Assembly (NCBI RefSeq): GCF_910592395.1
Contig: NC_088311.1
Span: forward strand, 4,280,501-4,344,500
Reading direction: 5' to 3'
From: Lineus longissimus
Lineage: Eukaryota > Nemertea > Pilidiophora > Heteronemertea > Lineidae
DNA length: 64,000 bases
Part shown: one piece after another, positions 1-26,636 of the stretch
How the letters are laid out: each line of letters starts with the position of its first letter
Numbering within the stretch: the stretch's first letter is position 1
Program-made: the position numbers and the translations under genes
The notes under the pieces: generated by a model
What the model was told of the DNA's origin: nothing
Seen by the model: only the letters and a program-made list of their open reading frames with translations
Database searches by the model: none

Positions 1-100
1 TTCAAAGAATCATCCCTGCACTTATAAAAAATAAACCTTCCTTTTTAGTGCTGGAAGATACTGCAACCTTACTTGAAACCTTTGGCTGCGCAACACTTAC

Positions 101-3100
101 TATCTTTTCCACCTTCAGTTTGCTTTGCATTGGTACCATTCCCTTCTGAAAGAAAAGATGTAACCAGGCATGAACTACATTACAGTCATTAGATTATTCG
201 ACGAGTCATAAATATTACGGGAATGCATCATCATTACCTGTGTTCAGTGTGGAATTTCCCGTGCTGACCGTCGAAATATCAGTGGTCGCTGCAGTCGACA
301 GTTGCTTCGTCGTAGTAGCGCGTTGTTCCTTGGTCGTAAAGTTAAGAGTTGGAGTAACGCCCGCCGTAGTACTTTCATGGGAGTTGTCAGTTGTTGGCGT
401 TCTTGTCGAAAAACGGCCACTCGTTACGGTTGCTGTGGAATTGGGTTCAACGGTGACAACTTTAATAGGTGAAGAAGTGGTTTCAGAAGCAGTGGTATTT
501 AAAATCCACTCTGTAGAAGGTACAGATGTTGTGCCTTCCTTTATAGCTGCGCTGGTGGAAGTTGATTCCGGGGACGTTGTGGGTGAAGTGGGTGTTGTCG
601 TTGTTGTTTGTGTTGCTATTGGTGTTACTGTTACTGTAGTCGTTGTCGTTGTCGTTACAGGTTTGACTGGCGGCGAAGTTGGTACTGAAAAAAAGGTTGA
701 AATCTCGCTTCATACTCACGTCTAACATTCGTATCACACAGACGGGTTTAGCTTTACAATCCGTGCGAGTCTATTAAACTGACAATATGGATTATTTGGT
801 AAATTTGACCAGTACTGTTTTAGACACACGCTTCAGAAGCGGCTAGTTAGATTTTCTGTCATTTTACCTAAATCCCTGCCATACCATTTCAGGCCATTGC
901 CTGCATCAAAACTCTATCGGGCTCCTCAGTATTCTCAATGAGACTGAGAGACCATAATTATTCGCAAGTAAAGTTTAAGTCCCTTAAACCTTAATGCAAA
1001 GCTGAATAAATACACGCCGGTCATCCTACCTGGAGCAAAGAGGCAACCTTGTGTTACATTAACACTCCACTCCTTAGTTTCTGTGCAGCGTGCCTCCTTT
1101 TGTTTGACCGACCAATCTTCGTCGAAGAAGAAGCCAGGCCTGCACTCCACCGTTACGACGTTCCCATAGGCATGACCCACCCAATCTGCATCCGCGTTAG
1201 TGAGGTTGTCAAGAGTGGGGCAGCGAACCCCTGCAGAAAATGAAAATAGTTTTGCATAATTCAGTGATCGTTGAAATTGCGATATGGTGATTGCTCCAAC
1301 CGATTATTGGTTCTGGTGTCATGTTTTGTGCACTATTTTTACGGGCACTGTATCAGCGTTTTCATGTTATTCGATGAAAAAAATGTAGATGCACCCTTAA
1401 GTCTATTTCACAAAAAATGGACACTTACTGGGGCAGCCAAAGATGACTACAGACCATTTACCAGTTGGCAAACAAACAGCTGTCTTGTCAACCGTCATTA
1501 TGGCCTCGTGACCCTTGTCACACGTTATGTTCGCTTGACCGCCAATCATCAGACTGTCATAAGTCACATTGACGCCATATACGTTTGGTATTGGACACGT
1601 GATAACTGCAAAGAAGACGTGATTATTAGGAACGAATACCTGATAACTGAGAAAAAGAAGTGAACATCACAATTGAGCAAAATCGCCAACAGTAAGGCCT
1701 TGAATTAGCAGTTTAGTGTAACGGAGTCAAAGCGCAGTTCATTCCACGAAAAAAGGCATTTTTGAGGTACCTAAAAATTGGTGGGGAGGCAAAACACCAC
1801 TGATACTGATAGGCCTACCTCTTAATGCAGTTCATTCTACAAAAAGTTATAACATGGCATCGAAGCTCAGACTAAAATTGTTCATTAAATAGCAATATTG
1901 TCCGCGATATACGAACTACGTTACACCTATAGTTTTTGCCCCTACCTTCACAAAACAGCTCTGGTCCACTCCACGACCCAGTTTCCAAACACTCCCTCTT
2001 CCCATCCGTACTGTTGACCAATCGGTACCCACTCTTGCAGGTGTACGTCACCACCGCTTGGTATTCGCGGTCGACATTTTGAATGTCACCGTTCAAGGGG
2101 GATGTCAGAGCCGGACATCTCACCACTAAAATGGTCAAAGAACATTTTACCATCCGCAAAAGTGTATTGTTTCCACAATCTCAAAGGAGGATTGTGTTAT
2201 ACTGTAATTAAATGGCACAAATGTATTTTTTGAAGATTCAGCTTTCTCAAAAACCTATGTGTGATATTTTTCAAATTTGATGAAGCTCACCGTCACATGT
2301 GGGTAATCTTCCGCTCCAGATACCATCAGCCTGACAGGTGATGTTAACGGGCCCGTTCAAAGTGTAGCCCTTGTTACACTCGAAGGCAAGTACCGAGTTG
2401 GTAGTCGATCCATCCCCTATGACTTGGCCAAACGTGGGGTCACCAATCTCTTGGCAGCCTATGCTTTCACTAACTGAAAAAAGTGCGAATCGTGTAAGGC
2501 AATATTGACATAAAGCTCTTGCGAACATTCCCACCTCAAGATTGGAGCATTGTATTCAATATGCACAAAGAGTAACGGTCACGAAGGCCTCCTATTTCAG
2601 TCGTTAACGAAAAAGCATGTCGTTCTCGGAATGTAAAAATTGTTGCTTACACTGGCACACTGGTGTCGTCCCATTCCAAGTGCCATCCTTTTGACAAACC
2701 CGGACAGATTCGCCCACCAGGTAGAAATTTTCATCGCAAGTGAAGATAGCTTTACTCCCGATTGCCTCACTGTCAAATTTAACACTGCCATACTGCGGTC
2801 CGCCAAGCCTGGGACACTTGATTTCTGAAGAGAAAAATACATTCAATATTTGTATGCCAGCGAGAATGCATGAGAAAACTGTGTTGCATTGTGTCAAAGG
2901 CGCGATTGCGAGAACGCGCGCGTCCCGGATTTGTAAGATTCAAGCTAAATCGCACTCCCAGTCGGTGAAAACCTACCCAGAGCCTTAGAAATGCTTGTGA
3001 TGTACTTGCGGCGAACTTGCGATGGTGATGCGATGATCCTGCGGCCGTTTTTGTAACTGAATATTCAACGGAATAATATTCCGCTAGCAGCAGTTTTGCC

Positions 3101-6100
3101 GATTACGATGTATTATGCTCAAAAACGCAGATGCAGCTCCTTGTCGACTGGTGGTGATCAGAAATTGTATTGACCACACCTCATCGCAAGACCGTCGTAA
3201 GAAATCGGAATGATGGTCATGGCTTCCCTGCTTGTCTAATGGATGTCATTCCAGAGCAGAGCAAATCACGTTTTCTCCGACTTTTTCTCGCAGATCTGTA
3301 GGTAACTGGTACGTAGTAACCGAAAGTGGAAAAAGGTTTTAGAAAACTTGTGCTCGTTGAGCAAGAACATGATTCATTTGGACTGCGCGTTTCAAACCTC
3401 CAGTCATATAAATACACTATCTCCCGGCGTCGTCTTCTTTTCAAGATAATGCTCAGTGTAAGGAACCGACAAATATTGTCCAAAATGTGTGATGACGCCG
3501 GCATTCTGCACCCGATACTTACGAATACAGGTTGGCCTCGGTGCCTCGGTCACCTGGTGCCATTTCTTGTCACTTGCACAGGTCAAGGCCAACTCGTCCA
3601 GGCCATTACTGTACCTGTAGCCATCATTGCAGCGGAACTTGGCAATGTAGTTTTCGTTGTAGAGAGCTTGCGGGTTGGTGTGTGTTCCATATGTAGCGTT
3701 GGCGGGTAGGTCACTCTTCTTGCATCCCAAGACTGTAGTCAACAGAATGATATCGGCGCTTATATATCGTTACCAAAGGCAATAGCGGATTTTTAATCCT
3801 CCTGGGAAGCCAATCATGCTCGTGAGCACTTCGGATTGATCAAATAATATAAATATAGGTAAACTTTGGAATCTTGCTACAAGTATCCGTTGTTGTAATG
3901 AGACGCAACGTCTCATAAAATCTTTTTTAAACATTGTTTTCGTTTGTACATGATCGTCCTTGTCGGTGCTTGAGAAACACGAAGATAAATACATCTGTGT
4001 GACCCCTACAATACTATTGTCAAGTTTAGACTTGGACATGGGAACAACAAAGAAATGACGAATTGTGTATTATGTCATAGTGTTCCCCATCATTGTTCCC
4101 CATCAGATTGAAGCCCTGTGTGCCTCCTAGGCACAGAAAGGATTGAGTAAGAATTACACAGTGGAGGAACATATAAACGCATCAGAAATTCACAGGGTGT
4201 CCTAGATGATCGGGACAGATATCTATTGCTTGTGTAACACGACTCCGCGTATTGTAAAAATGTTCACGTTCAACTCACCAGTAAACTGAATCCTGAATCC
4301 AACTGCTCTGTTCCGGGACCAGAAAACGACGTTGCTGTTTCCCAGTGTGTCCATCACCATATTGAGTATATCCTTCTCACAGAATTTTTTTGAGTTTTCA
4401 CCTGCATATTCTGTTAAATTTGAAATTGTGAGGTACGCTTTTCTGCAGCTGGCTCCAAGTTCGAATGAATACACCTACAGAAGATAAAATGCAATCCTAA
4501 AAAATACTATTCCGAGAAGAAACTGCCTGCACTTCCCGCGATATTTGCCAGCGCTCTTCTACAGTATGTGATCATGGTGATATAAAATGTTAGTAACTCT
4601 TCCTGTGCGCAACTGTTAGCTAGCATTGATTTCCAAGATGACCGCTGGAAGGCCAGGTCACTTGGCAAAAAGGAAAAATAGAGAGGTACATATATCATTG
4701 ACTCAACTTTCAATAGCCCCAGCTGTTACGAAACATGCTCCGCCAACAGACAACAGTTCAGCAGACGACTCAGATGCCACGCGGCAGGGATAACCTCGGT
4801 TCACCATTCAGCTGAGCAGCTGAAAGAACATATATTTGTTGTTTTGTGTATCTATCGACAGCATAATTACCTTGAACAAAATGTGCTGCCCTGGGGGGAC
4901 GATGACTTGCCACTTGCAGTTGTTGTCAACGGGATAGAATAATGGGTACTTCGGGCTGACGATGTCACTCTCTTCTACGTCTTCATATGTTCCATTACAA
5001 ATTGGGATTCCTTGATGAATATAGAATTGTTTGGCGATAAGTGTCGACGACAATGGAGGGGTGAGGGACCGTTTTGCGTAGGAATTCTTTAACTTATGGC
5101 GTATATTGAGGAACATTCCGGTGATTTTGTGTGCTCGTCTCTATGGCCGTTTAAGTAATTCCAAAGCTCCTGCGGTCAAGATCGGAAAAGTGAAAATGCA
5201 GTTGCACAACATTTATAATTTGTGTTGCTTTCCAACACAACAGTTGCAAAAACATAATGTGCTGCTTCCAAACACGCGGCCAGCCACCGTTCGAGGCCTC
5301 CGCGGGAAGGCCCTCCAGTCAATGCTGGCTCGGACGTGGGGTCCTCGAAGAAAATACATGTACAGTGGAACCCCGGTCGGCGACCACCCCGCTATGACGA
5401 CCAATCGCCGGCCCCGGTGTAATGTTTTTGAGTGTTTCTGTTTTTGAGTGTTTCCCCTCATTGTTTGGGAACGCTCAAAAATAGATTGACGAGTTTTTCT
5501 GTGTATCCCCCTTATTGAAAAGTCATGGTCTCTCTAGCTGCCTATTGTTTGGAAACACTGACACATGGGAAACAACCACAGATGTTACACCGGTTTGCTC
5601 TCTAATTACCATAACAAGGCCCCCGGCTCAAAATGAAGAAACATCATCAGCCCCAAAAAAATTGGCTTTGAAAATTTTTCAGAATTAATTTTGGCGGGAA
5701 AACTTAATCATGCATTTTGTCCCCGGATTTTCAACTTCACTAACACGACCACCCCGGTGACGCGACCATTCAACATAGGTCCCATGAGTGGTCGTGTTAC
5801 CGAGGTTCCACTGTTCAAATGTAAGGACGTAGAAATAAGATTTACATGTACATACCTTCTATAAGGAACTCAAATCCTTTACCATTTCCGTTCGTACCAT
5901 CGAAGGCGATGCATACCTCCAAACCTGGACTAAACACTGTGGCTTGCTTTGGTTGATAAATCCCTGAGTATCGTCTTAATTCCCAACCTTTGCAATCAGT
6001 GCCATTGGCAGCCCCTTCGGCGATTGTGACGCTATCTCTTTCAGTTAAGGACAACGTTTTCAGAGCGACCCGAGGACGAAGACCAGTACCGAACTTGAAG

Positions 6101-8021
6101 CTTTTCGCCATCTTGCTGCCAGGTGGATACACGGACGGGTAGTTTGGTGATGTGAATGTCTCACCCGCTGAAATTACGAATAAAAAAGATAAATCAACCA
6201 CGTCATTTGCAATAAAGGAGGTCCTTCTGAAGGCAATGTTCGCATTTTATTACACATTTTTCATGTAAAATAAGAAATAAACATGCCATAAATTAGCCAT
6301 GAATATAAATATAAACATGAAATGAGTACAGCTATGTTATCACAGCAGCCAGTGCAAAAAATCCGGCAAGTAAATTCTATCTATATCATTATCTACGCTA
6401 CAGCATTGCTTAAAGCGGATGATAGCCCTGTTTTCTTAAACTACAATGTCAAACAAAAATGTGCAAAACGAATAGAACGGGGACGTGTTTGGAGAAGGAG
6501 GACGCTTTTGCACAAAGTCTTCAACATATTAAGATGGGGAGGGTCCACCTGACCTTGACATAAAATTTGCAAATTGCACTGGACATCATCACTTTCTGCG
6601 CTGCGAATCCATGCGATTTTGAGATTTGCGATGTCACTGATCAACATCTGAAATGTCCCTCTACGAGATCAAATTTAATGGTGATTAAAATCTAGCACCA
6701 GTGCACTCATCGTATTATCAAGTATGTATCCATACTTGGTGTTATCAAATGTCAACACGCCAGATCAATGGCAGGTTATCATCACTTTAACACCTTTGGT
6801 CATTAGCCCATTAAAATTCAACTGACAAGTGTCTTGTGTATACATTAATCCAGTGATAAACATATGCACTGACCGCGAATCGATACTAAGAAGTATCAAA
6901 CGACATGGTAGTAGTAGTAGTAGTAGTAGTAATTTTATTGCTCAATCTAACAAGATAGACAATGCAACAGTAGAACACACAATGATACACAAATTAACGT
7001 TACATGAATGTACAAGACGGAGACCGGTGAAATTGTTCGGAAGCTCTTGGAGTGAACAGAACGTTGGAGTAGATAGAACGTTCTATTTACTCCAAGGGAA
7101 GCCATACAATAATTTACAATAATATTGTTAAATACTATCTAGTACCAGTAGGCCTAGTCAGAAAGAATCGATCTATCCTGTGACTAACTAGAATACCGAG
7201 TAGAATTTTTGAGAACTAGAATTATTAGGTAGGATTCTTGAGTGCTCTTTTATTGAGACAGGCTATGATAAAATTGATAACAGATTTACCAATTTCTGAG
7301 TCCCCGTGATTGTATGACATAAGAAAGGAGAATTCAAACGTTCTCTCAGTGACAATACTTCCATTTAGATGGGGAGTTTTCAAAAGCCTGTGGATCGTTT
7401 GTGTGTGTCTAAATATACGGGGTGGCGGAAGATCTATAGGACTGATACAAAGTCACTTTGATTAGAAGATGGATTTTATCTTATGTTTATGATACACTGT
7501 AGTAGTAGGGCTTTCATCATCAGAGGCCTACTACTATAAAACAGACTACAATTTTAATTTTTGTTATACATGTAGGAGGTGAATAAAAGAGCTTGGAAAG
7601 TCCGACTCCCTGTGTTAAGATGTCTTAATCGGTTCAAATGTTGAACGTCAATCTCGGTAAAGGTCCATTCTACTAATCCCCGATATGCAAGAAATTCGAA
7701 CACTTTCTATTTCTATGTACATTAGAAACATATTCAATTTATAAAATGGATTTTTTCGGACGTTTTTTCATGCTCACTGTCTTCACATGAACGGGTTTTT
7801 GGGACAGTGGTGAGTTAACGAAAGGGATTAGAGGCATGTGTCAACCAGAGTGATTTGGAACGTAAATGCTCTGAAAATCATATTCTCTCATGATCTATAG
7901 TAATATTTGATTTTACAGTCTGTCATAGGTAGCCCCCGATGCCTTAGCCTGAGTACTTACCCACGTAACCACTGGTGACTAACACAACCAGGGCAAACGA
8001 CAGAGCGCGAAGGGCCACCAT
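101..8021 (-). CDS. CUB-CUB-CCPx6-mucin receptor, copy A (exons 1-12; 3' end off window)
   Basis: This is the duplicate of the complete gene at 13660-22205. Exons from 5' to 3' on the minus strand are 7961-8021 (signal peptide), 5856-6167 (CUB1), 4871-5010 and 4279-4474 (CUB2), 3523-3732, 2651-2824, 2291-2473, 1946-2125, 1429-1605 and 1030-1230 (six sushi/CCP domains), 238-684 (Thr/Ser-rich stalk) and 101-145. Every exon has exactly the length of its copy B partner and keeps the frame, so the gene looks functional. The transmembrane and cytoplasmic exons should lie left of base 1. The CUB exons differ from copy B at 22 codons, all replacements, whereas the sushi exons are almost unchanged. 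A 172-bp element inserted in intron 2 is absent from copy B. The plus-strand open frame across the stalk exon (240-725) is an antisense shadow. Confidence 0.9.
5363..5813. mobile_element. Inverted-repeat element (MITE-like) in CUB receptor intron 2, copy A
   Basis: The element begins CAGTGGAACCCCGGT (5363-5377) and ends ACCGAGGTTCCACTG (5799-5813), giving 15-bp imperfect terminal inverted repeats. It has no coding capacity. The copy B partner is 19723-19997. It was present before the segmental duplication. Only the copy A version was later interrupted by a 172-bp insertion. Confidence 0.6.
5418..5589. mobile_element. Nested 172-bp insertion with 4-bp target duplication
   Basis: This sequence is absent from copy B, where one CCGG marks the empty site. 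In copy A it is flanked by CCGG at 5414-5417 and 5590-5593. Its ends are TGTAA and TTACA. The left half folds on itself (GAGTGTTTCCC against GGGAACGCTC). The empty-site comparison makes it a clear insertion after the duplication. Confidence 0.75.
6906..6932. repeat. (GTA)n microsatellite, copy A
   Basis: About eight GTA/TAG triplets in CUB receptor intron 1, also present in copy B near 21091-21117. Confidence 0.8.
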
Positions 8022-8507
8022 GTCCGCTGTCTGCGGTAGCCGTGTAGAAAGATCCAGACTGTCCGAAGTGCTGATTAATTAATTCGATGATTGCGCATGC
8101 GTCTGAACATGACTCGGTGCTCCACTTCCATGGTGATCTCTTGGCTAATCTCAATTGGTCAAGTACCAGATATGATATATGTTGTGGCAGGCACAAAGTG
8201 GAAAAATAACTATGAAAATATTTGTTGTCTAATCTATAAGGAAATTTGTTAATCCCATTTAGAACAAAATGTCAATAACAAGATGAACATGATGTCTACA
8301 AACACTTATATATCAACCGAAAACAAACAATTTTTATTGTTTAGCACTAAAATGTCTGTAATAAATATTTTTACATGACACGGTAGGTTTCCAACATCGA
8401 CCCACGTTAAGATGTTGGTATAGACAAACATGAGGCTAGCCGCCCCGGAAAGTCCACAGACGAATACATGTACTTTCATTCTTGCTTGGCCAATTTGAGG
8501 GTAGTTG

Positions 8508-9835
8508 CTATATCGTTCCGGGTAAATCGTCGTAGATCACTGAAGAAAGATGCTGACAATTTTCATACGTTGGGTTACTCATTGTGGCCCCGCAATCTTC
8601 ACCAGCGTTTCCTGCAAGGACAAAAATACGAGATGATATGCCACGGCAACACTGCGTTAGGCCCAATTGAGTTTTGATAAGTAAAATTCACCCGCTGACG
8701 TGGTTGGCGCCTTTTGAGGGTAGGACATGATACTACTCTGCACTGAGGCCCTTCGATCATTATTCTAATTTCAAAACAATAGTCCGGACTTGTTAATTTA
8801 CTGATAATTCCTACCTTTGCTTGTCGAGCAGGCAGCGCCATTCTGTCTTAACACTAAACCGATGACAAGAGAAACACCTACTGCCATTAGTACCACAACA
8901 ACGATTACAGAAATGATAATATTGTAACCCGAGTGTGGCTCCGAAGATGCTGGAACAATTCCTGGAAGGTAAGATGCGGAAATATTAAGAACCCGAGTAA
9001 CAGTAAACAAACATGTAATCAAGATTGACAAATAAATCATTGCTTATTCGTGGACAGATTTTTAAAAACTGTTGATCAAGGCATCCGATTTCAAAAGAAG
9101 CTTAATTACTCTTCATGCAGTCAGCAATTTGGTCCCCATCTAGTCGGAGTCACCGTTGCTCGGCCTCGCTATAAAGTGATGCAGCTTACCCGTTCGATTT
9201 ACAATATTCGGCCACTTTACTGTCGGTGGTATCGTGTACGATGAAATGGTTCGCGTCTTGGTTGTCTTATCACGTGGTTTAATTGTGATGTTATGACGCA
9301 CTGGGGCTGGCCTGTTGATTACCGTACATGTAGTTGAGGTTTTCAATATCTCTGAGATGTAGGTAGGATCTGGTGGCACTAAAGGTAGAAATGAGGATTC
9401 AAATTTTAAAAGCGTGAGGATACGTATTACGTTGAATTTCAATCAAATTTTAAACAAGCTTTATTTAGCACATTACGCATATCTATGAGCATACGGGTTT
9501 ACTATAAAACGACCGAGAGAAAACCTATTTGCACGTACACTTACATGTACTTGGCAACTTCGTCGAGAATATTTTTCTGCATGTTTTGCTTATTGTGGAG
9601 CCAACATTCGTGGTAATGGTGACTGTATACGCGATTCCGGGGACCAGCCCTTTCAGAGTCGCCCGCGAGGTCCGTACTACTTTCTTCCTCCCAATGGAAC
9701 CTGTGATTGCTGCCTCTTGGCTCGTCTCCACAACATAGTAGTCCAAGTTGCCAGTCACCGGTTTCCAGCTAATGTCCGCACTTGTTGCTGTGATCCTTCT
9801 AAAGTTTATTGTCGCCGGGTCAACGGACTGTGGCC
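8508..9835 (-). pseudogene. 5'-truncated duplicate of FN3 receptor gene (exons 3-6 only)
   Basis: Exons 9545-9835 (second FN3 domain), 9190-9378 (Thr-rich stalk), 8815-8961 (transmembrane) and 8508-8611 (cytoplasmic tail, stop) match copy B exon for exon in length and frame. The copy has no counterpart of exons 1 and 2, because homology with copy B ends at 10153, just before the end of exon 2. Without a signal peptide or original promoter it would not make the normal receptor. A new upstream exon remains possible, since the remaining exons have no stop or frameshift. It differs from copy B at about seven replacement codons (for example N/K, I/K, I/T in the FN3 domain). Confidence 0.75.
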
Positions 9836-10358
9836 CTGAAGGTATTTCATATATATAATAGTTGCCTTTGAAATTTTATAGAAGAAAAAAGATTGGGTTA
9901 TTCGCCAAGCCATGGACCTACCAAATGGATGGTAGTGCAATCGTGAGCAATATCAGTACCAACAGAATATTATATGTAAGAGTGGGTAAGACTGTTACCC
10001 CTTCTGTTGACTTTTTGATTTTGTAGCGACACGTACGAACAGCAACAATAAACATCTCGCGGGCCTGCGAGTTGCAAGAAAACAAAATTCTACAGCTGAA
10101 ACCTTTGATCGCCTTCGCTTTCTTTTCTCCCGTGTGCGTTGAGCCTGTAGGCAATAAGGCAATAATCAATCATTAGGAAAACGCATAGCCAGATATTCAA
10201 TCATTAGGACTGCCTGAGACGTACAAGCTAAAATAAAATTGTTCTATCGGTAATTGGACAAGTAAGATAGATTTTTCTTAGATGTGAACAAAGGCGAATT
10301 TTCTCGAATGAGAAGGGCCGAAGCAGTAGTTATTCTAATTTCCTTTTTTTAAATTTAG

Positions 10359-12805
10359 ATCCTGAAGTTTGGAAGACCCTGGATAATATGGTCTTTAGTG
10401 GTGAGGCATGCGGTGTAGAAGTACGCATGGACGTTTTCGAGAAGATCGGTGCATTCGGAAACCAGAAATGCGACCGTGAGTAGGCTTATGGTATAAGTTA
10501 CCCAGACCCCTCATGACCGCGTTGATAAAGGGAGACAATGCGCATGGGTTGGTCGGGGCAGAGATTGGGCGCTCGCTTTGTTTGACTTAAGTAATAGCAA
10601 ATAATCGTTGTAACATTTTGAAAAGACTTCGATTCACCACGCACGAGATAGAATAGCCACTTTGCTCCTGCATATAACTTGTGACTCTTCAACAAACACT
10701 AAAAACCGTCCAAGCTTGACTTGTGTTCAATGATGGGGGGGGGGGGGGGGGGGGGGTGATGGTAGGAAACATTTCACTCTGATTTAGCTTTCCTATAGAG
10801 GGAACAGTCAGAAACGGAGAGCTCAAATTATTATCTAAATATGCATAACGTTGTTTCCCGTGCGCAGATGGATGCAACCTGGGTGCCATTGAAGCCAGCC
10901 TTCAAGCAAGCTGGGACAAGAGTCAGCCCTTCTTTGATTTCCTCAACGACTGGCTCGAGAACTCGATCAGCCCATGGAGCCTCAAGAACCCAAGTTGCAC
11001 GTAAGAGATCATCTCAAAATTGATTAAGAGAGATGAATATTTTCATCTGAGGAAAAGGGTCAGCAATTTCCATGCCAAACTTTGTTGTTGTTTTTCACTC
11101 TTCTCGCATCATAAATGACATGAAAAGTTTAACCAAAGAAGGTATTCTTTTAAATTTCAAAAGGATACGTTGATCAAAGTTACCTTCAAGTAAAGCCCTG
11201 AATGATCTTCCTACTAGTTATCATGAAGACTAAGTATCTCCTAATTTCCTTCCCAATTGTTTTATATCTTGCTTTAGTTAGATATATACATGACTGTATG
11301 TGTACCACAAGCTTGTATTTTTTTAAGAAATGGAAACAACCGGCAATACTTTGAGCGTGCGTCTTAATCACCCGGAAGTTTATTGACCATAAGGTCTTTT
11401 TAAATCGAATTTTCAGCGAGATTGTTGAGCCCGCCATCATTGCCGTTAGAGACGCCGTTGTAAACTCTGGTAACTGCAAACCAAAAGCACTCGCCGTTTT
11501 CCTCGACGGCGGCTATGGCCTCTTCGAAAAGGACGATCTGGGTATTGAAAGTAGTGCTTACAGCCGCTGCAATAGTTTCAGGCATCACAGTGAATGTACG
11601 TAAAATCATTTTCCTGTACCACATCATCGGTTTTGGGGCAGTGTAGCCATAAGATAACAAATCTGTGATTCGTGTGTCCTAGCAATCGCACTAAATGGAA
11701 ACCTACGCCGAATTCATTACCCGGCACTCGAATATCGGCGTCCGCGCAGTCGCGGTTTGCATCTATAATACAACAGTGGTGCGTCCGAATTAACAATACA
11801 AAACTCGAAAGCATGTCATGCCGGAGGTCGTTGGATGTTAGTCGCTACATTCTCTATTTTTCAACCAATTTCGAAAATAAAGTACATGCTCGCCATAACA
11901 AAGACTCTACAGGCGTTATGAAGTTGCAATTTTGCGTCAAATCGTGTGCAGCGTGTAAACCTACCCGTACTCAGCCAGGGAACTAATACGGAGCCATTAA
12001 AACATTTCATGAGAGAAAGAATCAGAAGAACTGGGCACTTTTTATGCAATACTTGTTTAAATTCGTTCCTTCTTTGCTACTGATGGTGATGTATTGCTCC
12101 CCATATAGCACCCCTATTTAAGGAAGCGATTCAAAGCAATGTCATACTAACCTTGTACCTTTTTAATTCTTTCTTCAGTTTTTAAGAGCCACTACAGACA
12201 GTGGCCAACAGGTAAGTATTGTTTCGACAAGTTAGATGTTCCCGGTCTTAGATTTATCCAGGTCTCTCGCTCTCAGAAATAAAGGTTTTTGAGCTTTTGA
12301 GAAACATTTTTAGGATTAACGGCCAACACAAATATGCACTCTGTTAGAGGCTTTTAATTTCATTGAAAAATCTTTGCGGGTGCGCATTTTTGTTGGCTGA
12401 AACCCCAGGTCAAAAACCTTTTTTCTGTGATTGTTGGCCTTCGGCCTGTTTGATACAGACACTCCAGCTAGGTAGACAGACCGTATAGGTATGATGTCTT
12501 ATCCAGCCTAGCCGAGGGTTCTCCTCATCTAAAGTCGCAAATGACTTTGATGTCCAGGTTTCTTAACTTGGTTGTACTTTATCAAAAAATGATGAACGGG
12601 AGTATTATAGTATACAAGTTGCATCGTAGCAGTTACGGGTGCTTATTTGGAGAGAACTGAATCGTTATACACATTCACATTTTTTGGTATTAACAGAAAA
12701 ATTATTACAAATGGCAATTTCCCCGTCTTTTTTTCAGACGCCCATGGCATTGCTCAGGTTATCATGAGCAACATGCTAGTAGTAGGAATAGAGAGAACAT
12801 CGTAA
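10359..12805 (+). CDS. Gene X: unrecognised protein, 3' exons only (5' end cut by duplication junction)
   Basis: Five plus-strand exons with good splice sites and matching phases end in a TAA: 10359-10475, 10868-11000, 11417-11595, 12179-12211, 12738-12805. They encode about 176 residues, starting in mid-protein (PEVWKTLDNMVF...) and ending NMLVVGIERTS. Six cysteines are spread along the piece (GEACG, QKCD, HGCN, PSCT, NCKP, SRCN), which would suit an extracellular domain, but no family is recognised. The first exon opens with an acceptor and no upstream coding exon is visible before 10154, where copy A ends. The missing 5' exons probably lay outside the duplicated unit, so this copy is likely truncated; a complete copy is predicted left of the window. 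A polyA signal lies at 13389-13394. Confidence 0.6.
10735..10756 (+). repeat. Poly-G tract (22 G)
   Basis: An uninterrupted run of 22 G lies in the first intron of the gene X fragment. It could form a G-quadruplex and is a likely site of length error. Confidence 0.9.
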
Positions 12806-13659
12806 CAGATCTCGATTTCCGACCTTGGTGTGAATCACTAATCAACTGAATAACATTCGTTCGGCTTAATAAAACGTGTCAGTCTTACTTTCTTTGTGCA
12901 AAAGACGTGGCAGTTTTAACAGCCATAATGGAATCCGGCCTTTGGAATCAAAATAAAGCCTATATCGGGAGATCTGCCTCTCGAAGAATGGCACCCGATG
13001 CGTATATAGGCGATTACCGGGGTATGCGAATGAACAGAGAGGAGGATGAGAGAGTGATTTCCAAGAAACTGATCTGTGCAGTAAGGAGACTGGGTACACG
13101 TGCCAATGCATGTACACGTATGTTCTGTAAGACCTGTAGAACTCGGTATCCTTTCAGTCACTTTGTGAACAACAACCCGGTCCACCTGGCTCTAGCCTAT
13201 TCTAAGTAGGCTTTTCAACACAGTTGAATAAGTTCCAATTGATTTTATGCAAATTGTATTGTTTTTCGTTCTTTCTGTATCTATATATGGAATACACTTG
13301 ACCTACTGGTATGATTGGTATATCAACGTATTTTCTTCACCTCCACTGATTTACTTTTGAAAGGTAGTTGGAAATATTGTACAATATAAATAAAATGAGC
13401 AGCAACATGTTTTGGTGATGAAATGTTTTATTAAATGATTGTAACATTATATAGCTAACAAAGATACCAATCTTAACTCACCCGGCCCCATTAATTTCTG
13501 ATGATATTTTTCAAGGCGAAATATGAAGAATGAATGAAATACTAATTTTCAAAATCTATACCTTTTGTTAAGTTGTATAGAGAATCCTTCGATCTGCTTG
13601 GATATTATCACCGTAATCTTACTTCCTCTGTATTTTTTCACTGGCGAATTAGTTTTTCT
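12806..13659. other. Convergent 3' ends of gene X and CUB/CCP receptor
   Basis: This 850-bp interval carries AATAAA signals for both strands (12869-12874 and 13389-13394 plus; 13427-13432 minus). The open frames of 83-100 codons here overlap each other on both strands and show no domain, so I treat them as UTR noise. Confidence 0.5.
13427..13432 (-). terminator. Polyadenylation signal AATAAA, CUB/CCP receptor copy B
   Basis: A minus-strand AATAAA lies about 230 nt past the stop codon of the receptor gene. The plus-strand gene X ends nearby with its own AATAAA at 13389-13394, so the two convergent 3' UTRs probably abut or overlap. Confidence 0.45.
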
Positions 13660-16600
13660 TTAATTATTGAAACTTGCTTGGTGTGCATCAATAGCCCGTT
13701 CATTATCCCCTGGGGTCACGTTGACCGAGTCCAGGTCATACAGTTGATTCTCGAAGGCACCACCATCATTCGTCAATCTCTCACTCGGAACTGCGTTACT
13801 GTAATTCAAAGCGCCGGTAAATGTAGAACTGAATTTACTGTTACAAACATTATAACACGCAAGAGAAAATGAGTATTTGTTTTTATTGCAAATTCTACAA
13901 TCAAAATCTCAGTTGTAACGTTTTCACTAACCAAGCTATAATCTGAGATGCCATACCAAGCCTAGGAGGTCCCGCGACGGTTAATGACCTTATACTTGAT
14001 ACTGTCATACTGGAGTATCCGGCCATTATTTTACTTGATTCTGAAGTCCTCACAATTCATCACTCGTACCAATATACTTACGATTTCCTAATGTACCAAA
14101 TGGCAACCACGACCAATACAATCACAAGTAACGCACAGCCAACGCCAATGCCAATGTATTCACCACTCTCTGCAAGGAAAATGCACATAACACACGGTAA
14201 ACTCAGCCGTAAATACTTAGATTTTATGAATAAATGGTCTTGTTGTTTATATTATTTTAGCCGTTGTTTATAGGTAGGTCTCAACTTGATGCCTATCTCA
14301 GGATGAGACTCTGGGTATAATATTTGAGCATCTACAGGATCATATATCTTAACCTGAATCGAGCAACACGTTTTCTAAGAATCATCCCTGCACTTATAAA
14401 AAATAAACCTTCCTTCTTAGTGCTGGAAGATACTGCAACTTTACTTGAAACCTTTGGCTGCGCAACACTTACTATCTTTTCCACCTTCAGTTTGCTTTGC
14501 ATTGGTACCATTCCCTTCTGAAAGAAAAGATGTAACCAGGCATGAACTACATTACAGTCATTAGATTATTCGACGAGTCATAAATATTACGGGAATGCAT
14601 CATCATTACCTGTGTTCAGTGTGGAATTTCCCGTGCTGACCGTCGAAATATCAGTGGTCGCTGCAGTCGACAGTTGCTTCGTCGTAGTAGCGCGTGGTTC
14701 CTTGGTCGTAAAGTTAAGAGTTGGAGTAACGCCCGCCGTAGTACTTTCATGGGAGTTGTCAGTTGTTGGCGTTCTTGTCGAAAAACGGCCACTCGTTACG
14801 GTTGCTGTGGAATTGGGTTCAACGGTGACAACTTTAATAGGTGAAGAAGTGGTTTCAGAAGCAGTGGTATTTAAAATCCACTCTGTAGAAGGTACAGATG
14901 TTGTGCCTTCCTTTATAGCTGCGCTGGTGGAAGTTGATTCCGGGGACGTTGTGGGTGAAGTGGGTGTTGTCGTTGTTGTTTGTGTTGCTATCGATGTTAC
15001 TGTTACTGTAGTCGTTGTCGTTGTCGTTACGGGTTTGACTGGCGGCGAAGTTGGTACTGAAAAAAAAGGTTGAAATCTTGCTTCATACTCACGTCTAACA
15101 TTCGTATCACACAGACGGGTTTAGCTTTACAATCCGTGCGAGTCTAATAAAGTGACAATATGGATTATTTGGTAAATTTGACCAGTACTGTTTTAGACAC
15201 ACGCTTCAGAAGCGGCTAGTTAGATTTTCTGTCATTTTACCTAAATCCCTGCCATACCATTTCAGGCCATTGCCTGCATCAAAACTCTATCGGCCTCCTC
15301 AGTATTCTCAATGAGACTGAGAGACCATAATTATTCGCAAGTAAAGTTTAAGTCCCTTAAACCTTAATGCAAAGCTGAATAAATACACGCCGGTCATCCT
15401 ACCTGGAGCAAAGAGGCAACCTTGTGTTACATTAACACTCCACTCCTTAGTTTCTGTGCAGCGTGCCTCCTTTTGTTTGACCGACCAATCTTCGTCGAAG
15501 AAGAAGCCAGGCCTGCACTCCACCGTTACGACGTTCCCATAGGCATGACCCACCCAATCTGCATCCGCGTTAGTGAGGTTGTCAAGAGTGGGGCAGCGAA
15601 CCCCTGCAGAAAATTAAAATAGTTTTGCATAATTCAGTGATCGTTGAAATTGCGATATGGTGATTGCTCCAACCGATTAGTGGTTCTGGTGTCATGTTTT
15701 GTGCACTATTTTTACGGGCACTGTATCAGCGTTTTGCATGTTATTCGATGAAAAAAATGTAGATGCACCCTTAAGTCTATTTCACAAAAAATGGACACTT
15801 ACTGGGGCAGCCAAAGATGACTACAGACCATTTACCAGTTGGCAAACAAACAGCTGTCTTGTCAACCGTCATTATGGCCTCGTGACCCTTGTCACACGTT
15901 ATGTTCGCTTGACCGCCAATCATCAGACTGTCATAAGTCACATTGACGCCATATACGTTTGGTATTGGACACGTGATAACTGCAAAGAAGACGTGATTAT
16001 TAGGAACGAATACCTGATAACTGAGAAAAAGAAGTGAACATCACAATTGAGCAAAATCGCCAACAGTAAGGCCTTGAATTAGCAGTTTAGTGTAACGGAG
16101 TCAAAGCGCAGTTCATTCAACGAAAAAAGGCATTTTAAAAATTGGTGGGGAGGCAAAACACCACTGATACTGATAGGCCTACCTCTTAATGCAGTTCATT
16201 CTACAAAAAGTTATAACATGGCATCGAAGCTCAGACTAAAATTGTTCATTAAATAGCAATAGCAATATTGTCCGCGATATACGAACTACGTTACACCTAT
16301 AGTTTTTGCCCCTACCTTCACAAAACAGCTCTGGTCCACTCCACGACCCAGTTTCCAAACACTCCCTCTTCCCATCCGTACTGTTGACCAATCGGTACCC
16401 ACTCTTGCAGGTGTACGTCACCACCGCTTGGTATTCGCGGTCGACATTTTGAATGTCACCGTTCAAGGGGGCTGTCAGAGCCGGACATCTCACCACTAAA
16501 ATGGTCAAAGAACATTTTTCCATCCGCAAAAGTGTATTGTTTCCACAATCTCAAAGGAGGATTGTGTTATACTGTAATTAAATGGCACAAATGTATTTTT

Positions 16601-19600
16601 TGAAGATTCAGCTTTCTCAAAAACCTATGTGTGATATTTTTCAAATTTGATGAAGCTCACCGTCACATGTGGGTAATCTTCCGCTCCAGATACCATCAGC
16701 CTGACAGGTGATGTTAACGGGCCCGTTCAAAGTGTAGCCCTTGTTACACTCGAAGGCAAGTACCGAGTTGGTAGTCGATCCATCCCCTATGACTTGGCCA
16801 AACGTGGGGTCACCAATCTCTTGGCAGCCTATGCTTTCACTAACTGAAAAAAGTGCGAATCGTGTAAGGCAATATTGACATAAAGCTCTTGCGAACATTC
16901 CCACCTCAAGATTGGAGCATTGTATTCAATATGCACAAAGAGTAACGGTCACGAAGGCCTCCTATTTCAGTCGTTAACGAAAGAGCATGTCGTTCTCGGA
17001 ATGTAAAAATTGTTGCTTACACTGGCACACTGGTGTCGTCCCATTCCAAGTGCCTTCCTTTTGACAAACCCGGACAGATTCGCCCACCAGGTAGAAATTT
17101 TCATCGCAAGTGAAGATAGCTTTACTCCCGATTGCCTCACTGTCAAATTTAACACTGCCATACTGCGGTCCGCCAAGCCTGGGACACTTGATTTCTGAAG
17201 AGAAAAATACATTCAATATTTGTATGCCAGCGAGAATGCATGAGAAAACTGTGTTGCATTGTGTCAAAGGCGCGATTGCGAGAACGCGCGCGTCCCGGAT
17301 TTGTAAGATTCAAGCTAAATCGCACTCCCAGTCGGTGAAAACCTACCCAGAGACTTAGAAATGCTTGTGATGTACTTGCGGCGAACTTGCGATGGTGATG
17401 CGATGATCCTGCGGCCGTTTTTGTAACTGAATATTCAACGGAATAATATTCCGCTAGCAGCAGTTTTGCCGATTACGATGTATTATGCTCAAAAACGCAG
17501 ATGCAGCTCCTTGTCGACTGGTGGTGATCAGAAATTGTATTGACCACACCTCATCGCAAGACCGTCGTAAGAAATCGGAATGATGGTCATGGCTTCCCTG
17601 CTTGTCTAATGGATGTCATTCCAGAGCAGAGCAAATCACGTTTTCTCCGACTTTTTCTCGCAGATCTGTAGGTAACTGGTACGTAGTAACCGAAAGTGGA
17701 AAAAGGTTATAGAAAACTTGTGCTCGTTGAGCAAGAACATGATTCATTTTCAAACCTCCAGTCATATAAATACACTATCTCCCGGCGTCGTCTTCTTTTC
17801 AAGATAATGCTCAGTGTAAGGAACCGACAAATATTGTCCAAAATGTGTGATGACGCCGGCATTCTGCACCCGATACTTACGAATACAGGTTGGCCTCGGT
17901 GCCTCGGTCACCTGGTGCCATTTCTTGTCACTTGCACAGGTCAAGGCCAACTCGTCCAGGTCATTACTGTACCTGTAGCCATCATTGCAGCGGAACTTGG
18001 CAATGTAGTTTTCGTTGTAGAGAGCTTGCGGGTTGGTGTGTGTTCCATATGTAGCGTTGGCGGGTAGGTCACTCTTCTTGCATCCCAAGACTGTAGTCAA
18101 CAGAATGATATCGGCGCTTATATATCGTTACCAAAGGCAATAGCGGATTTGTAATCCTCCTGGGAAGCCAATCATGCTCGTAAGAGCTTCGGATTGATCA
18201 AATAATATAAATATAGGTAAACTTTGGAATCTTGCTACAAGTATCCGTTGTTGTAATGAGACGCAATGTCTCATAAAATCTTTTTTAAACATTGTTTTCG
18301 TTTGTACATGATCGTCCTTGTCGGTGCTTGAGAAACACGAAGATAAATACATCTGTGTGACCCCTACAATACTATTGTCAAGTTGAGACTTGGACATGGG
18401 AACAACAAAGAAATGACGAATTGTGTATTATGTCATAGTGTTCCCCATCATTGTTCCCCATCAGATTGAAGCCTTGTGTGCCTCCTAGGCACAGAAAGGA
18501 TTGAGTAAGAATTACACAGTGGAGGAACATATAAACGCATCAGAAATTCGCAGGGTGTCCTAGATGATTGGAACAGATATAAGTATTGCTTGTATAACAC
18601 GACTGCGTGTATTGTAAAAATGTTCATGTTCAACTCACCAGTAAACTGAATCCTGAATCCAAGTCCCTCTTTCCGGGACCAGAAAACGACGTTGCTGTTT
18701 CCCAGTGTGTCCATCACCATATTGAATATATCCTTCTCACAGAATTTTTTTGAGTTTTCACCTGCATATTCTGTTAAATTTGAAATTGTGAGGTACGCAT
18801 TTCTGCAGCTGGTTCCAAGGTTGAATGAATACACCTACAGGAGATAAAATGCAATCCTAAAAAATACTATTCCGAGAAGAAACTGCCTGCACTTCCCGCG
18901 ATATTTGCCAGCGCTCTTCTACAGTATGTGATCATGGTGATATAAAATGTTAGTAACTCTTCCTGTGCGCAACTGTTAGCTAGCATTGATTTCCAAGATG
19001 ACCGCTGGAAGGCCAGGTCACTTGGCAAAAAGGAAAAATAGAGAGGTACATATATCATTGACTCAACTTTCAATAGTCCCAGCTGTTACGAAACATGCTC
19101 CGCCAAAGGACAACAGTTCAGCAGACGACTCAGATGCCACGCGGCAGGGATAACCTCGGCTCACCATTCAGCTGAGTAGCTGAAAGAACATATATTTGTT
19201 GTTTTGTGTATCTATCGACAGCATAATTACCTTGAACGAAATGTGCTGCCCTGGGGGGACGATGATTTGCCACTTGCAGTTGTTGTCAACGGGAGAGTAT
19301 AATGGGTAGTTCGGGCTGATGATGTCACTCTCTTCTACGTCTTCATATGTTCCATTACAAATTGGGATTCCTTGATGAATATAGAATTGTTTGGCGATAA
19401 GTGTCGACGACAATGGAGGGGTGAGGGACCGTTTTGCGAGGGAATTATTTAACTTATGGCGTATATTGAGGAACATTCCGGTGATTTTGTGTGCTCGTCT
19501 CCATGGCCGTTTAAGTAATGCCAAAGCTCCTGCGGTCAAGATCGGAAAAGTGAAAATGCAGTTGCACAACATTTATAATTTGTGTTGCTTTCCAACACAA

Positions 19601-22205
19601 CAGTTGCAAAAACATAATGTGCTGCTTCCAAACACGCGGCCAGCCACCGTTCGAGGCCTCCGCGGGAAGGCCCTCCAGTCAATGCTGGGTCGGACGTGGT
19701 GTCCTCGAAGAAAATGCATGTACAGTGGAACCCCGGTCGGCGACCACCCCGCTATGACGACCAATCGCCGGTCCCGGTTTGCTCTCTAGTTACCATAACA
19801 AGGCCCCCGGCTCAAAATGAAGAAACATCATCAGCCCCAAAAAAATTGGCTTTGAAAATTTTTCAGAATTAATTTTGGCGGGAAAACTTAATCATGCAAT
19901 TTGTCCCCGGATTTTCAACTTCACTTACACGACCACCCCGGTGACGCGACCATTCAACATAGGTCCCATGAGTGGTCGTGTTACCGAGGTTCCACTGTTC
20001 AAATGTAAGGACGTAGAAATAAGATTTACATGTACATACCTTCTATAAGGAACTCAAATCCTTTACCATTTCCGTTCGTACCATCGAAGGCGATGCATAC
20101 CTCCAAACCTGCACTAAACACTGTGTCTTGCTTTGGTTGATAAAACCATGAGTATCGTTTTAATTCCAAACCTTTGCAATCAATGCCATTGGCAGCCCCT
20201 TCGGCGATTGTGACGCTATCTCTTTCAGTTAAGGACAACGTTTTCAGAGCGACCCGAGGACGAAGACCAGTACCGAACTTGAAGCTTTTCGCCACCTTGC
20301 TGCCAGGTGGATACACGGACGGGTAGTTTGGTGATGTGAATGTCTCACCCGCTGAAATTACGAATAAAAAATATAAATCAACCACGTCATTTGCAATAAA
20401 GGAGGTCCTTCTGAAGGCAATGTTCGTATTTTATCACACATTTTTCATGTAAAATAAGAAATAAACATGCCATAAATTAGCCATGAATATAAATATAAAC
20501 ATGAAATGAGTACAGCTATGTTATCACAGCAGCCAGTGCAAAAAATCCGGCAAGTAAATTCTATCTATATCATTATCTACGCTACAGCATTGCTTAAAGC
20601 GGATGATAGCCCTGTTTTCTTAAACTACAATGTCAAACAAAAATGTGCAAAACGAATAGAACGGGGACGTGTTTGGAGAAGGAGGACGCTTTTGCACAAA
20701 GTCTTCAACATATTAAGATGGGGAGGGTCCACCTGACCTTGAAATAAAATTTGCAAATTGCACTGAACATCATCACTTTCTGCGCTGCGAATCCATGCGA
20801 TTTTGAGATTTGCGATGTCACTGATCAACATCTGAAATGTCCCTCTACGAGATCAAATTTAATTGTGATTAAAATCTAGCACCAGTGCACTCATCGTATT
20901 ATCAAGTATGTATCCATACTTGGTGTTATCAAATGTCAACACGCCAGATCAATGGCAGGTTATCATCACTTTAACACCTTTGGTCATTAGCCCATTAAAA
21001 TTCAACTGACAAGTGTCTTGTGTATACATTAATCCAGTGATAAACATATGCACTGACCGCGAATCGATACTAAGAAGTATCAAACGACATGGTAGTAGTA
21101 GTAGTAGTAGTAGTAATTTTATTGCTCAATCTAACAAGATAGACAGTGCACAGTAGAACACACAATGATACACAAATTAACGTTACATGAATGTACAAGA
21201 CGGAGACCGGTGAAATTGTTCGGAAGCTCTTGGAGTGAACAGAACGTTGGAGTAGATAGAACGTTCTATTTACTCCAAGGGAAGCCATACAATAATTTAC
21301 AATAATATTGTTAAATACTATCTAGTACCAGTAGGCCTAGTCAGAAAGAATCGATCTATCCTGTGACTAACTAGAATACCGGGTAGAATTTTTGAGAACT
21401 AGAATTATTAGGTAGGATTCTTGAGTGCTCTTTTATTGAGACAGGCTATGATAAAATTGATAACAGATTTACCAATTTCTGAGTCCCCGTGATTGTATGA
21501 CATAAGAAAGGAGAATTCAAACGTTCTCTCAGTGACAATACTTCCATTTAGATGGGGAGTTTTCAAAAGCCTGTGGATCGTTTGTGTGTGTCTAAATATA
21601 CGGGGTGGCGGAAGATCTATAGGACTGATACAAAGTCACTTTGATAAGAAGATGGATTTTATCTTATGTTTATGATACACTGTAGTAGTAGGGCTTTCAT
21701 CATCAGAGGCCTACTACTATAAAACAGACTACAATTTTAATTTTTGTTATACATGTAGGAGGTGAATAAAAGAGCTTGGAAAGTCCGACTCCCTGTGTTA
21801 AGATGTCTTAATCGGTTCAAATGTTGAACGTCAATCTCGGTAAAGGTCCATTCTACTAATCCCCGATATGCAAGAAATTCGAACACTTTCTATTTCTATG
21901 TACATTAGAAACATATTCAATTTATAAAATGGATTTTTTTCGGACGTTTTTTCATGCTCACTGTCTTCACATGAACGGGTTTTTGGGACAGTGGTGAGTT
22001 AACGAAAGGGATTAGAGGCATTTGTCAACCAGAGTGATTTGGAACGAAAATGCTCTGAAAATCATATTCTCTCATGATCTATAGTAATATTTGATTTTAC
22101 AGTCTGTCATAGGTAGCCCCCGATGCCTTAGCCTGAGTACTTACCCACGTAACCACTGGTGACTAACACAACCAGGGCAAACGACAGAGCGCGAAGGGCC
22201 ACCAT
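13660..22205 (-). CDS. CUB-CUB-CCPx6-mucin-stalk type I membrane receptor, copy B (complete)
   Basis: Fourteen exons join to exactly 2553 nt (850 aa): 22145-22205, 20040-20351, 19231-19370, 18639-18834, 17881-18090, 17021-17194, 16661-16843, 16316-16495, 15803-15979, 15403-15603, 14610-15056, 14473-14517, 14082-14169, 13660-13798. All junctions have GT-AG and matching phase. The order is signal peptide (1-19, MVALRALSFALVV...), CUB1 (about 22-124), CUB2 (125-236), six CCP modules of about 60 residues (237-611), a Thr/Ser/Pro stalk likely to be O-glycosylated (612-760), a hydrophobic segment IGIGVGCALLVIVLVVVAIW near 780-800, and a 46-residue tail with AFENQLYDLDSV. CUB and CCP domains usually bind proteins or glycans outside the cell, so a surface recognition receptor is inferred; the ligand is unknown. 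It starts only 567 bp downstream of the FN3 gene's stop. Confidence 0.93.
19723..19997. mobile_element. Inverted-repeat element (MITE-like), copy B partner
   Basis: Same terminal repeats as 5363-5813, but without the nested insertion. The empty site has a single CCGG at 19774-19777. Non-autonomous, no open frame of note. Confidence 0.6.
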
Positions 22206-22771
22206 GTCCGCTGTCTGCGGTAGCCGTGTAGAAAGATCCAGACTGTCCGAAGTGCTGATTAATTAATTCGATGATTGCGCATGCGTCTGAACATGACTCG
22301 GTGCTCCACTTCCATGGTGATCTCTTGGCTAATCTCAATTGGTCAAGTACCAGATATGATATATGTTGTGGCAGGCACAAAGTGGAAAAATAACTATGAA
22401 AATATCTGTTGTCTAATCCATAATGAAATTTTTTAATCCCATTTAGAACAAAATGTCAATAACAAGATGAACATGATGTCCACATTCTCCTATCGTTGAT
22501 GATAACGTGTAACTGATTATCTTAAACATACCTATGTAGAAACGGAACAAACACTTATATATCAACCGAAAAAAAACAATTGTTGAACATGCTTTTTTTA
22601 TTGTTTAGCACTAAAATGTCTGTAATAAATATTTTTACATGACACGGTAGGTTTCCAACATAGACCCACGTTAAGATGTTGGTATAGACAAACAAGTGGC
22701 TAGCCGCCCCGGAAAGTCCACAGACGAATACATGTACTTTCATTCTTGCTTGGCCAATTTGAGGGTAGTTG
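22206..22771 (-). promoter_or_regulatory. Short intergenic interval: FN3 3' UTR plus CUB/CCP receptor promoter
   Basis: Only 566 bp separate the FN3 gene's stop from the next gene's ATG (486 bp at 8022-8507 in copy A). The interval must hold the first gene's 3' UTR and any promoter of the second. No clear TATA box was found. Copy B has about 65 bp near 22480-22548 that copy A lacks. Confidence 0.35.
22597..22602 (-). terminator. Polyadenylation signal AATAAA, FN3 receptor copy B
   Basis: A minus-strand AATAAA lies about 170 nt beyond the stop codon at 22772. The equivalent site in copy A is 8333-8338. It separates the FN3 gene from the CUB/CCP gene that starts about 390 nt further on. Confidence 0.5.
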
Positions 22772-26129: not shown

Positions 26130-26636
26130 AGCGCGCAACCGCGGCAAAAACAGCCCAAGTGGTTGTGTAGTCATTATGCACTGGACTATGGCAACCGCGG
26201 CGAAAAGCCCCAGTGCGCCTGTCATTATGCACTGAACTAAGGCAACCAAGGCGAAAAGCCCAAGTGCGTCTGTCAATATGCACTGAACTAAGGCAACCAA
26301 GGCGAAAAGCCCAATTGCGTCTGTCATTATGCACTGACCTAAGGCAACCGCGGCGAAAAGCCCAAGTGCGACTCTCATGCACTGACCTAAGGCAACCAAT
26401 GCGAAAAGCCGAAGTGCGTCTGTCATTATGCACTGAACTAAGGCAACCACGGCGAAAAGCCCCAGTGCGTCTGTCATTATGCACTGAACTAAGGCAACCA
26501 CTTCGAAAAGCCCAAGTGCGTCTGTCATTATATTGCACTGAACTGAGGCAACCACGGCGAAAAGCCCAAGTGCGTCTGTCATTATGCACTGAACTGAGGC
26601 AACCACGCCGAAAAGCCTGAGTGGGTCTGTCACTTG
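26130..26636. repeat. 51-bp minisatellite, about 10 copies
   Basis: The unit is recognisable by GCGAAAAGCCCAAGTGCGTC followed by TGTCATTATGCACTGAACTA and AGGCAACCAC. GAAAAGCC recurs at 26202, 26253, 26304, 26355, 26403, 26454, 26505, 26559 and 26610, so the spacing is 51 bp with one 48 and one 54. Because 51 is 17 codons and both variants are also multiples of three, long open frames appear in three frames (one plus, two minus). No start context, splice signal or known domain supports a protein. Confidence 0.9.

Follow-up and report, generated by a model that had tools for sequence, protein, structure and literature searches.

Replacement-only differences between the CUB domains of a duplicated cell-surface receptor in Lineus longissimus: a candidate case of diversifying selection

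The duplicated locus and its genes

The window (the whole stretch of DNA analysed, 64,000 nucleotides of contig NC_088311.1) contains two neighbouring, near-identical copies, A and B, of an animal cell-surface receptor gene. Each copy lies in a larger repeated unit; unit A probably continues left past the window edge and, if the repeat is simple, positions 10153–14372 of unit B would match the sequence found there. The units differ by a 176-base insertion in A and by 65 and 15 extra bases in B. Self-comparison of the window revealed no third copy, the window is free of N, and scans of it for Rfam families (at gathering thresholds) and tRNAs were empty. The features are as follows.

1–10152: unit A, the part within the window; aligns to 14373–24419 at 97.4–98.9%
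10153–24419: unit B; matches A over 14373–24419; bounded sharply at 10152 and 24419
7961–8021, minus strand: signal-peptide exon, copy A; identical to copy B
22145–22205, minus strand: signal-peptide exon, copy B; ATG, hydrophobic stretch, GTAAGT donor
5856–6167, minus strand: CUB1 exon, copy A; 8 codons unlike B, all replacements
20040–20351, minus strand: CUB1 exon, copy B
4871–5010, minus strand: first CUB2 exon, copy A; 6 codons unlike B, all replacements
19231–19370, minus strand: first CUB2 exon, copy B
4279–4474, minus strand: second CUB2 exon, copy A; 8 codons unlike B, all replacements; holds the NRAV/KEGL cluster
18639–18834, minus strand: second CUB2 exon, copy B
1030–3732, minus strand: six CCP exons, copy A (3523–3732, 2651–2824, 2291–2473, 1946–2125, 1429–1605, 1030–1230); 3 replacement and 0 silent differences
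15403–18090, minus strand: six CCP exons, copy B
238–684, minus strand: Ser/Thr-rich stalk exon, copy A; 2 replacement and 2 silent differences
14610–15056, minus strand: Ser/Thr-rich stalk exon, copy B
14082–14517, minus strand: linker (14473–14517) and transmembrane (14082–14169) exons, copy B
13660–13828, minus strand: cytoplasmic-tail exon, copy B; runs to the stop codon
22772–25259, minus strand: second receptor gene; signal peptide, two FN3 domains, linker, membrane helix, tail with VIYDDL and NPTY
8508–9865, minus strand: FN3 receptor in copy A, 3' four exons only (FN3-2, linker, transmembrane, tail); control region
3793–6251: island of high A/B divergence over both CUB domains (two-state segmentation)

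Copy B encodes a complete receptor of 860 residues, composed of a signal peptide, two CUB domains, six CCP modules, a Ser/Thr stalk, a membrane helix and a tail. Exon coordinates agreed in both copies with those of the original prediction, GT-AG splice sites were confirmed, and frames are open in the 10 compared exons of A and in all 14 of B. From the hydropathy and splice sites of copy B, whose signal peptide is followed by a single membrane helix and a tail, a type I membrane receptor is predicted; the membrane and tail exons of copy A fall beyond the window, and the prediction applies to copy B only. The tail of copy B has one YxN, and no ITIM-type or YxxI/L/V match was found in it. Spliced CUB2 matches Pfam CUB above the cut-off (E 1.2e-10 in A and 1.9e-10 in B); CUB1, which was assigned to the CUB fold, fell below it in A (E 0.13), with no match listed in B. 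Sushi modules were recognized in six stretches (E 2.6e-46 for the whole protein), and no Ig domain was listed when the complete protein was scanned against Pfam up to an E of 1.

The neighbouring gene encodes the FN3 receptor, whose tail motif VIYDDL is ITIM-like. Further Pfam scans covered the three minus-strand frames of 10101–14600, 24350–27000 and 6168–8700 (nine translations, stops read as X); only FN3 scored above the cut-off, and DUF753 appeared as a weak sub-threshold match. In the CUB receptor the introns that follow the stalk exon and the linker exon are phase 1, as are those on either side of the FN3-2, linker and transmembrane exons of the FN3 gene.

Differences between the CUB exons

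The comparison rests on one pair of copies from one genome and, as two sequences without an outgroup are available, changes cannot be assigned to A or to B. The copies differ, as originally counted, at 8 codons in CUB1 and 14 in CUB2, through 25 nucleotide changes, and all 22 codons change the residue. The accompanying count of 25 replacement and no silent changes is corrected to 24:1 when Nei-Gojobori pathways are followed, because the AGA/GAG pair needs three steps. In the codon alignment that had been proposed as a check, dN between A and B is 0.0475 and dS 0.0072 (Fisher p 0.025, or 0.0026 if counted as 25:0). The differences are also clustered, as had been noticed: seven of the eight in CUB1 lie within 25 residues (56–80; P 0.0033 in 20,000 random placements), and 6 of the 25 nucleotide changes occupy 8 bases at the NRAV/KEGL site (A 4303–4310). 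This last cluster can be aligned as compensating -1 and +1 indels plus two substitutions, so the 25 changes are not independent events.

An NGT sequon in CUB1 of copy A is lost in B, and the positions of the changes were compared along the secondary-structure string only. By BLOSUM62 the replacements are not uniformly radical; 6 of the 22 score 1 to 3, 9 score 0 and 7 are negative. The CCP exons, for which about three differing codons had been reported, have exactly three across all six exons, each a replacement.

Comparison with neutral expectation

The spectrum of noncoding changes gives a neutral silent share of 0.2501. With this share the improbability first put forward for the pattern (0.75 to the 25th power) is reproduced at 0.00075 (0.0007), but it is less extreme with fewer independent events: the probability of no silent change is 0.0018 for 22 events and 0.0075 for 17, the latter figure resulting from hand-set merging of the clustered CUB changes, with the FN3 changes not merged likewise. 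At the local intron rate about 2.9 silent changes would be expected at 140 sites (P(0) 0.057); taken alone, the zero is only mildly unexpected at that rate.

Replacement divergence in the CUB exons, 4.75% (24/505), exceeds the local noncoding divergence of 2.05% (33/1610), with a one-sided p of 0.0016. How strong this excess is depends on the treatment of clustered changes: it weakens without the NRAV/KEGL cluster (19/495, one-sided p 0.022) and further after full merging (17/495, one-sided p 0.059, two-sided 0.09). Block resampling of the noncoding sites in the two divergent blocks, assuming a replacement share of 75%, yielded at least 19 replacements and no silent change with a probability of 0.0005–0.0007; for at least 17 replacements, again without a silent change, the probability was 0.0012–0.0019. 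The total of changes alone is not extreme, as 5.4% of 648-site noncoding windows in the divergent blocks reach 25, and resampling of noncoding sites from these blocks gave 25 or more with P 0.025–0.047.

The strongest alternative to selection is that the island has simply not been homogenized since the duplication, that the CUB domains are almost free of constraint, and that the lack of silent change reflects luck together with multi-base events. Such an account draws on the marginal excess left at about 17 events, on the raised divergence of the island introns, and on the CUB exons having been picked after the pattern was noticed. It is opposed by the rarity under block resampling of so many replacements without a silent change, even at 17 or more, and by the silent changes that do occur in other exons of the unit; on balance it seems rather unlikely.

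The divergence island and the control gene

Divergence between A and B forms a clear mosaic of low and high blocks. Two-state segmentation, with rates and switch probability set by hand, places the edges of the island at 3793 and 6251, bracketing the CUB exons, and noncoding sites alone give the same edges. Noncoding divergence within these 2.5 kb is 2.2% (36/1635); it is about 2% in the introns around the CUB exons, as against 0.4–0.65% in the flanks. The introns next to CUB2 are raised, but the level of about 4% once given for them was not borne out: average divergence is 1.5% (6/396) in the intron separating the two CUB2 exons and 2.75% (15/545) and 1.8% (12/669) in those to either side, with 250-base bins reaching 3.6% at 4000 and, partly within exon, 5.2% at 4250. 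Since the introns are raised too, the CUB exons sit inside an island. The block around the CCP exons is quiet in its noncoding sites as well (14/2198, 0.64%), and visible constraint on the CCP exons relative to CUB was rejected, their noncoding surroundings being equally quiet.

A second divergent block, around the FN3 gene, serves as a control. Its noncoding divergence is 2.65% (31/1168, or 31/1192 with slightly different edges), and its four exons differ by 9 replacement and 6 silent changes, the tail exon being identical in A and B. Equal divergence here goes without a bias towards replacements, so selection is not required for an island to exist. The CUB ratio of 24:1 differs from the FN3 ratio of 9:6 (Fisher p 0.007; p 0.0055 with the CUB changes merged to 17:0) and from that of the other coding sequence counted (14:8; p 0.008, or 0.006 with CUB merged). 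A general lack of silent change in the coding sequence of the unit was considered and rejected, there being six such changes in FN3 and two in the stalk.

Interpretation

Diversifying selection on the CUB domains is the best reading, and a moderately supported one. The gene for the putative type I receptor would have been carried along when some 14 kb were duplicated in tandem, giving two genes, presumably, and not two alleles. Much of the unit may then have stayed similar, or become similar again, with gene conversion as the probable means; across the N-terminal CUB domains, divergence would have been retained or built up in an island of 2.5 kb. Inside the island amino-acid changes would have been favoured, leaving 22 residues different with almost no silent change, in the outermost and presumably ligand-binding part of the protein. 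The replacement-only changes suggest selection for different binding faces. To this scenario as a whole a probability of roughly 0.42 is assigned.

Copies A and B could also be two haplotypes of one locus placed end to end by the assembly (a heterotype false duplication), an error reported to occur chiefly in regions of haplotype divergence (PMC9516828). The abrupt junction at 10152/10153 and the single repeat end at 24419 have the layout that overlapping haplotype contigs would leave if concatenated, the alternation of 0.4% and 2.5% divergence resembles that of recombining haplotypes, and the FN3 copy in A is without its 5' exons, as if from a cut contig. On the other hand, no N occurs in the window and a true tandem duplication yields an identical layout; the inserted bases in A and B fit either reading. 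Such a mis-assembly is judged unlikely.

The CUB variants of one copy could have come by gene conversion from a further paralogue, a third and more divergent one. This would account for the sharp edges of the island and for six changes in 8 bases, but is improbable, as such a donor would normally bring proportionate silent and intron differences and no third copy is present in the window; with dN above the intron level and dS near zero, selection would be needed even with this donor.

Given the phase 1 introns, the orphan FN3-TM-ITIM half, which has an open frame and lies downstream of the complete CUB receptor, could splice onto it in frame. There is a slim chance that the locus is a young paired-receptor recognition cluster, in which a diversifying CUB-CCP receptor was duplicated together with a 3' FN3 half and a chimera with a diversified head and an inhibitory tail could form.

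The pair of duplicates is a well-defined candidate that falls short of a demonstration. If the pattern is confirmed in more individuals, it would define a recognition receptor with an N-terminal CUB pair as its variable part. It would also be a clean example from nature of how selection keeps duplicates distinct in a single binding module despite conversion between them. Should the copies be alleles, the surface receptor would instead carry a polymorphism unusually rich in replacements.

Comparison with known systems

The proteins C1s, MASP, cubilin, PCPE-1, CR1, CR2 and factor H, found in the PDB, have module types in common with this receptor, and the match is by module only; to our knowledge none of them has two N-terminal CUB domains followed by six CCP modules. 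Diversifying selection on CUB domains in tandem receptors was not found in the titles and abstract beginnings of the matches listed, a search with subscription papers outside its scope.

Fester and the fester co-receptor (FcoR) of Botryllus are described likewise as membrane receptors that lie side by side, have sushi domains, ITIM motifs in a tail and variable ectodomains (PMC12065747). Those ectodomains combine Ig domains with a sushi domain, whereas that of the present receptor is CUB-CUB-CCPx6 and the locus has CUB, six CCP and FN3 modules. Ciona vCRL1, a variable complement-receptor-like protein, is a highly polymorphic sushi-domain protein; CUB is unmentioned in the description given of it, and in the present receptor it is the CCP modules that are quiet. 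It was found not to act in self/nonself recognition at fertilization (PMC9265791). A role of CUB domains in recognition is already known from sea-urchin EBR1, a species-specific gamete-recognition receptor likewise with repeated CUB domains; EBR1 is described as belonging to the ADAMTS family, with thrombospondin repeats and a mass of about 350 kDa (PMC9265791), whereas the present receptor is 860 residues long and has CCP modules and a stalk.

Duplicates that are similar overall but strongly divergent in one part are also reported for human red/green opsins, gibbon L/M opsins and copepod GOT1, where the pattern is read as selection against homogenization (PMC3924837, PMC3213168, PMC3728101). 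Those studies draw on several species, individuals or populations, as against one pair of copies here, and in the gibbon opsins exons exceed introns, whereas here the island introns are raised too. A peak of divergence between converting duplicates is regarded as a signature of the targets of selection (PMC3924837).

Layout of the duplication

The window (64 kb, G+C 41.9%, zero N) is animal DNA with genes broken up into extracellular modules. Neighbouring open frames, as recognised in their translations, presumably encode a LIM/hillarin-type protein, a rhodopsin-type GPCR, an HBS1-type GTPase and a TBC protein. An open frame with repeated SLADLASxHQ-type blocks (44972-46762) lies upstream of the GTPase exons, which we take to resemble an HBS1 gene, and a minisatellite whose repeat unit measures some 51-56 bases, open in several frames, occupies 26135-26632.

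In a self-comparison of the window, positions 1-10152 match 14373-24419 at 97.4-98.9% identity, and the identity between units A (1-10152) and B (10153-24419) breaks off sharply at 10152 and 24419. A simple tandem repeat of ~14.3 kb, the left end of unit A lying beyond the window, would explain both the alignment and the sharp ends. Two haplotype contigs placed end to end fit this layout equally well as a true tandem duplication; such false duplications are reported chiefly where haplotypes diverge (PMC9516828). Copy B carries the CUB receptor gene in full. In copy A but not in B, an intron contains an insertion of ~176 bases (5414-5589) bounded by short terminal inverted repeats (CGGTGTAA), with flanking matches that overlap by 5 bases; it resembles a small non-autonomous DNA transposon.

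Codon divergence of the CUB exons

The codon alignment of the two copies took in ten exons, CUB1 through the stalk, with steps and sites counted by Nei-Gojobori; the signal-peptide exon carries no A/B change. Twenty-two CUB codons differ, with 24 replacement steps and 1 silent step (505.2 replacement and 139.8 silent sites); the CCP exons show 3 and 0 (879 and 246 sites), and the stalk 2 and 2 (320 and 127 sites). The alignment bears out the original prediction that all 22 differing CUB codons alter the residue. Its count of 25 replacements in 25 nucleotide changes holds with the AGA/GAG codon taken as one block, but becomes 24:1 by pathway counting, the lone silent step being a pathway average over that codon.

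With the 89 changes in the noncoding part of the duplication as neutral spectrum, the expected silent share of non-stop changes in CUB codons is 25.0%. The predicted chance of below 0.001 for finding no silent change is reached if 25 changes are independent (0.00075; at most one silent, 0.007). They are not all independent, because tract 4303-4310, in the second CUB2 exon, can be aligned with one base lost, one gained and two substitutions instead of six ungapped substitutions. The probability is 0.0018 for 22 changes and 0.0075 for the 17 events left after merging this tract and three doublets (neighbouring or within-codon).

CUB replacement divergence exceeds local noncoding divergence (33/1610), with one-sided p values of 0.0016 for the full count, 0.022 with the tract left out and 0.059 after merging (two-sided 0.0023, 0.031 and 0.090). 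Block resampling from noncoding sites of both divergent blocks gave 0.0012-0.0019 for at least 17 replacements with zero silent changes, and, for total changes, 0.025-0.047 for at least 25 and 0.08-0.12 for at least 22. The CUB exons were picked after the pattern had been seen, so all these values flatter the claim, and its support is read as moderate.

Seven of the eight CUB1 changes fall within residues 56-80 of 103 (P 0.0033), surrounding strand 61-67 of the predicted model, and T56I in copy B abolishes the only N-glycosylation sequon of CUB1. CUB2 changes fall into three groups (residues 17-25, 51-58 and 101-104), with singles at 35, 44 and 83. The 22 replacements are a mix, not uniformly radical (BLOSUM62: 6 score 1 to 3, 9 score 0, 7 negative).

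The FN3 receptor gene as control

The neighbouring FN3 receptor gene provides control coding sequence:

22772-25259, minus strand: FN3 receptor, complete gene model of 380 residues (signal peptide, FN3, FN3, linker, membrane helix, tail)
8508-9865, minus strand: orphan copy A of this gene, only the last four exons, open, phase 1

The tail holds an ITIM-type match (VIYDDL) and an NPTY motif, and all five introns are phase 1. The complete CUB receptor ends ~3.8 kb upstream of the orphan half; an in-frame chimeric transcript of the two would be possible in principle. Immediately downstream of the FN3 gene, copy B (22482-22595) has 65 + 15 bases more than copy A (8297-8331).

The four shared exons differ by 9 replacement and 6 silent changes. 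The CUB ratio departs from this (p 0.007 for 24:1, 0.0055 for 17:0) and from all other counted coding sequence (14:8; p 0.008 and 0.006 respectively), and the replacement bias is therefore specific to the CUB exons, not duplication-wide.

Mosaic of divergence

Two-state segmentation, with rates set by hand at 0.5% and 2.6%, returned four blocks, identical whether all sites or only noncoding sites were used.

Segmentation blocks and their noncoding divergence (copy A positions).
1-3792: 0.64%
3793-6251: 2.2%
6252-8221: 0.41%
8222-10152: 2.65%

The richest 400-site noncoding window holds 17 changes, a number reached in 1 of 2000 permutations. The CUB exons thus lie within an island of elevated intron divergence as well, and the low divergence of the CCP exons matches that of their block. 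The block of the FN3 exons diverges slightly more than that of the CUB exons, and it shows that replacement bias need not accompany a divergent block. Such a mosaic would be expected from gene conversion between duplicates or from recombination between haplotypes.

Interpretation and comparison with known systems

The CUB observation as a whole stands, with its count and improbability corrected. Of the readings considered, diversifying selection acting on the CUB module ranks first, at a probability of about 0.4. Divergence peaks are treated as a selection signature in gene-converting duplicates in a review (PMC3924837), and related patterns are reported for gibbon opsins (PMC3213168) and copepod GOT1 (PMC3728101). 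An ITIM-like FN3 receptor so close to the CUB receptor is reminiscent of the fester/FcoR pairs in Botryllus (PMC12065747), whose domains are unlike those here and place the present genes outside the group. A precedent for CUB domains in gamete recognition is EBR1 (PMC9265791).
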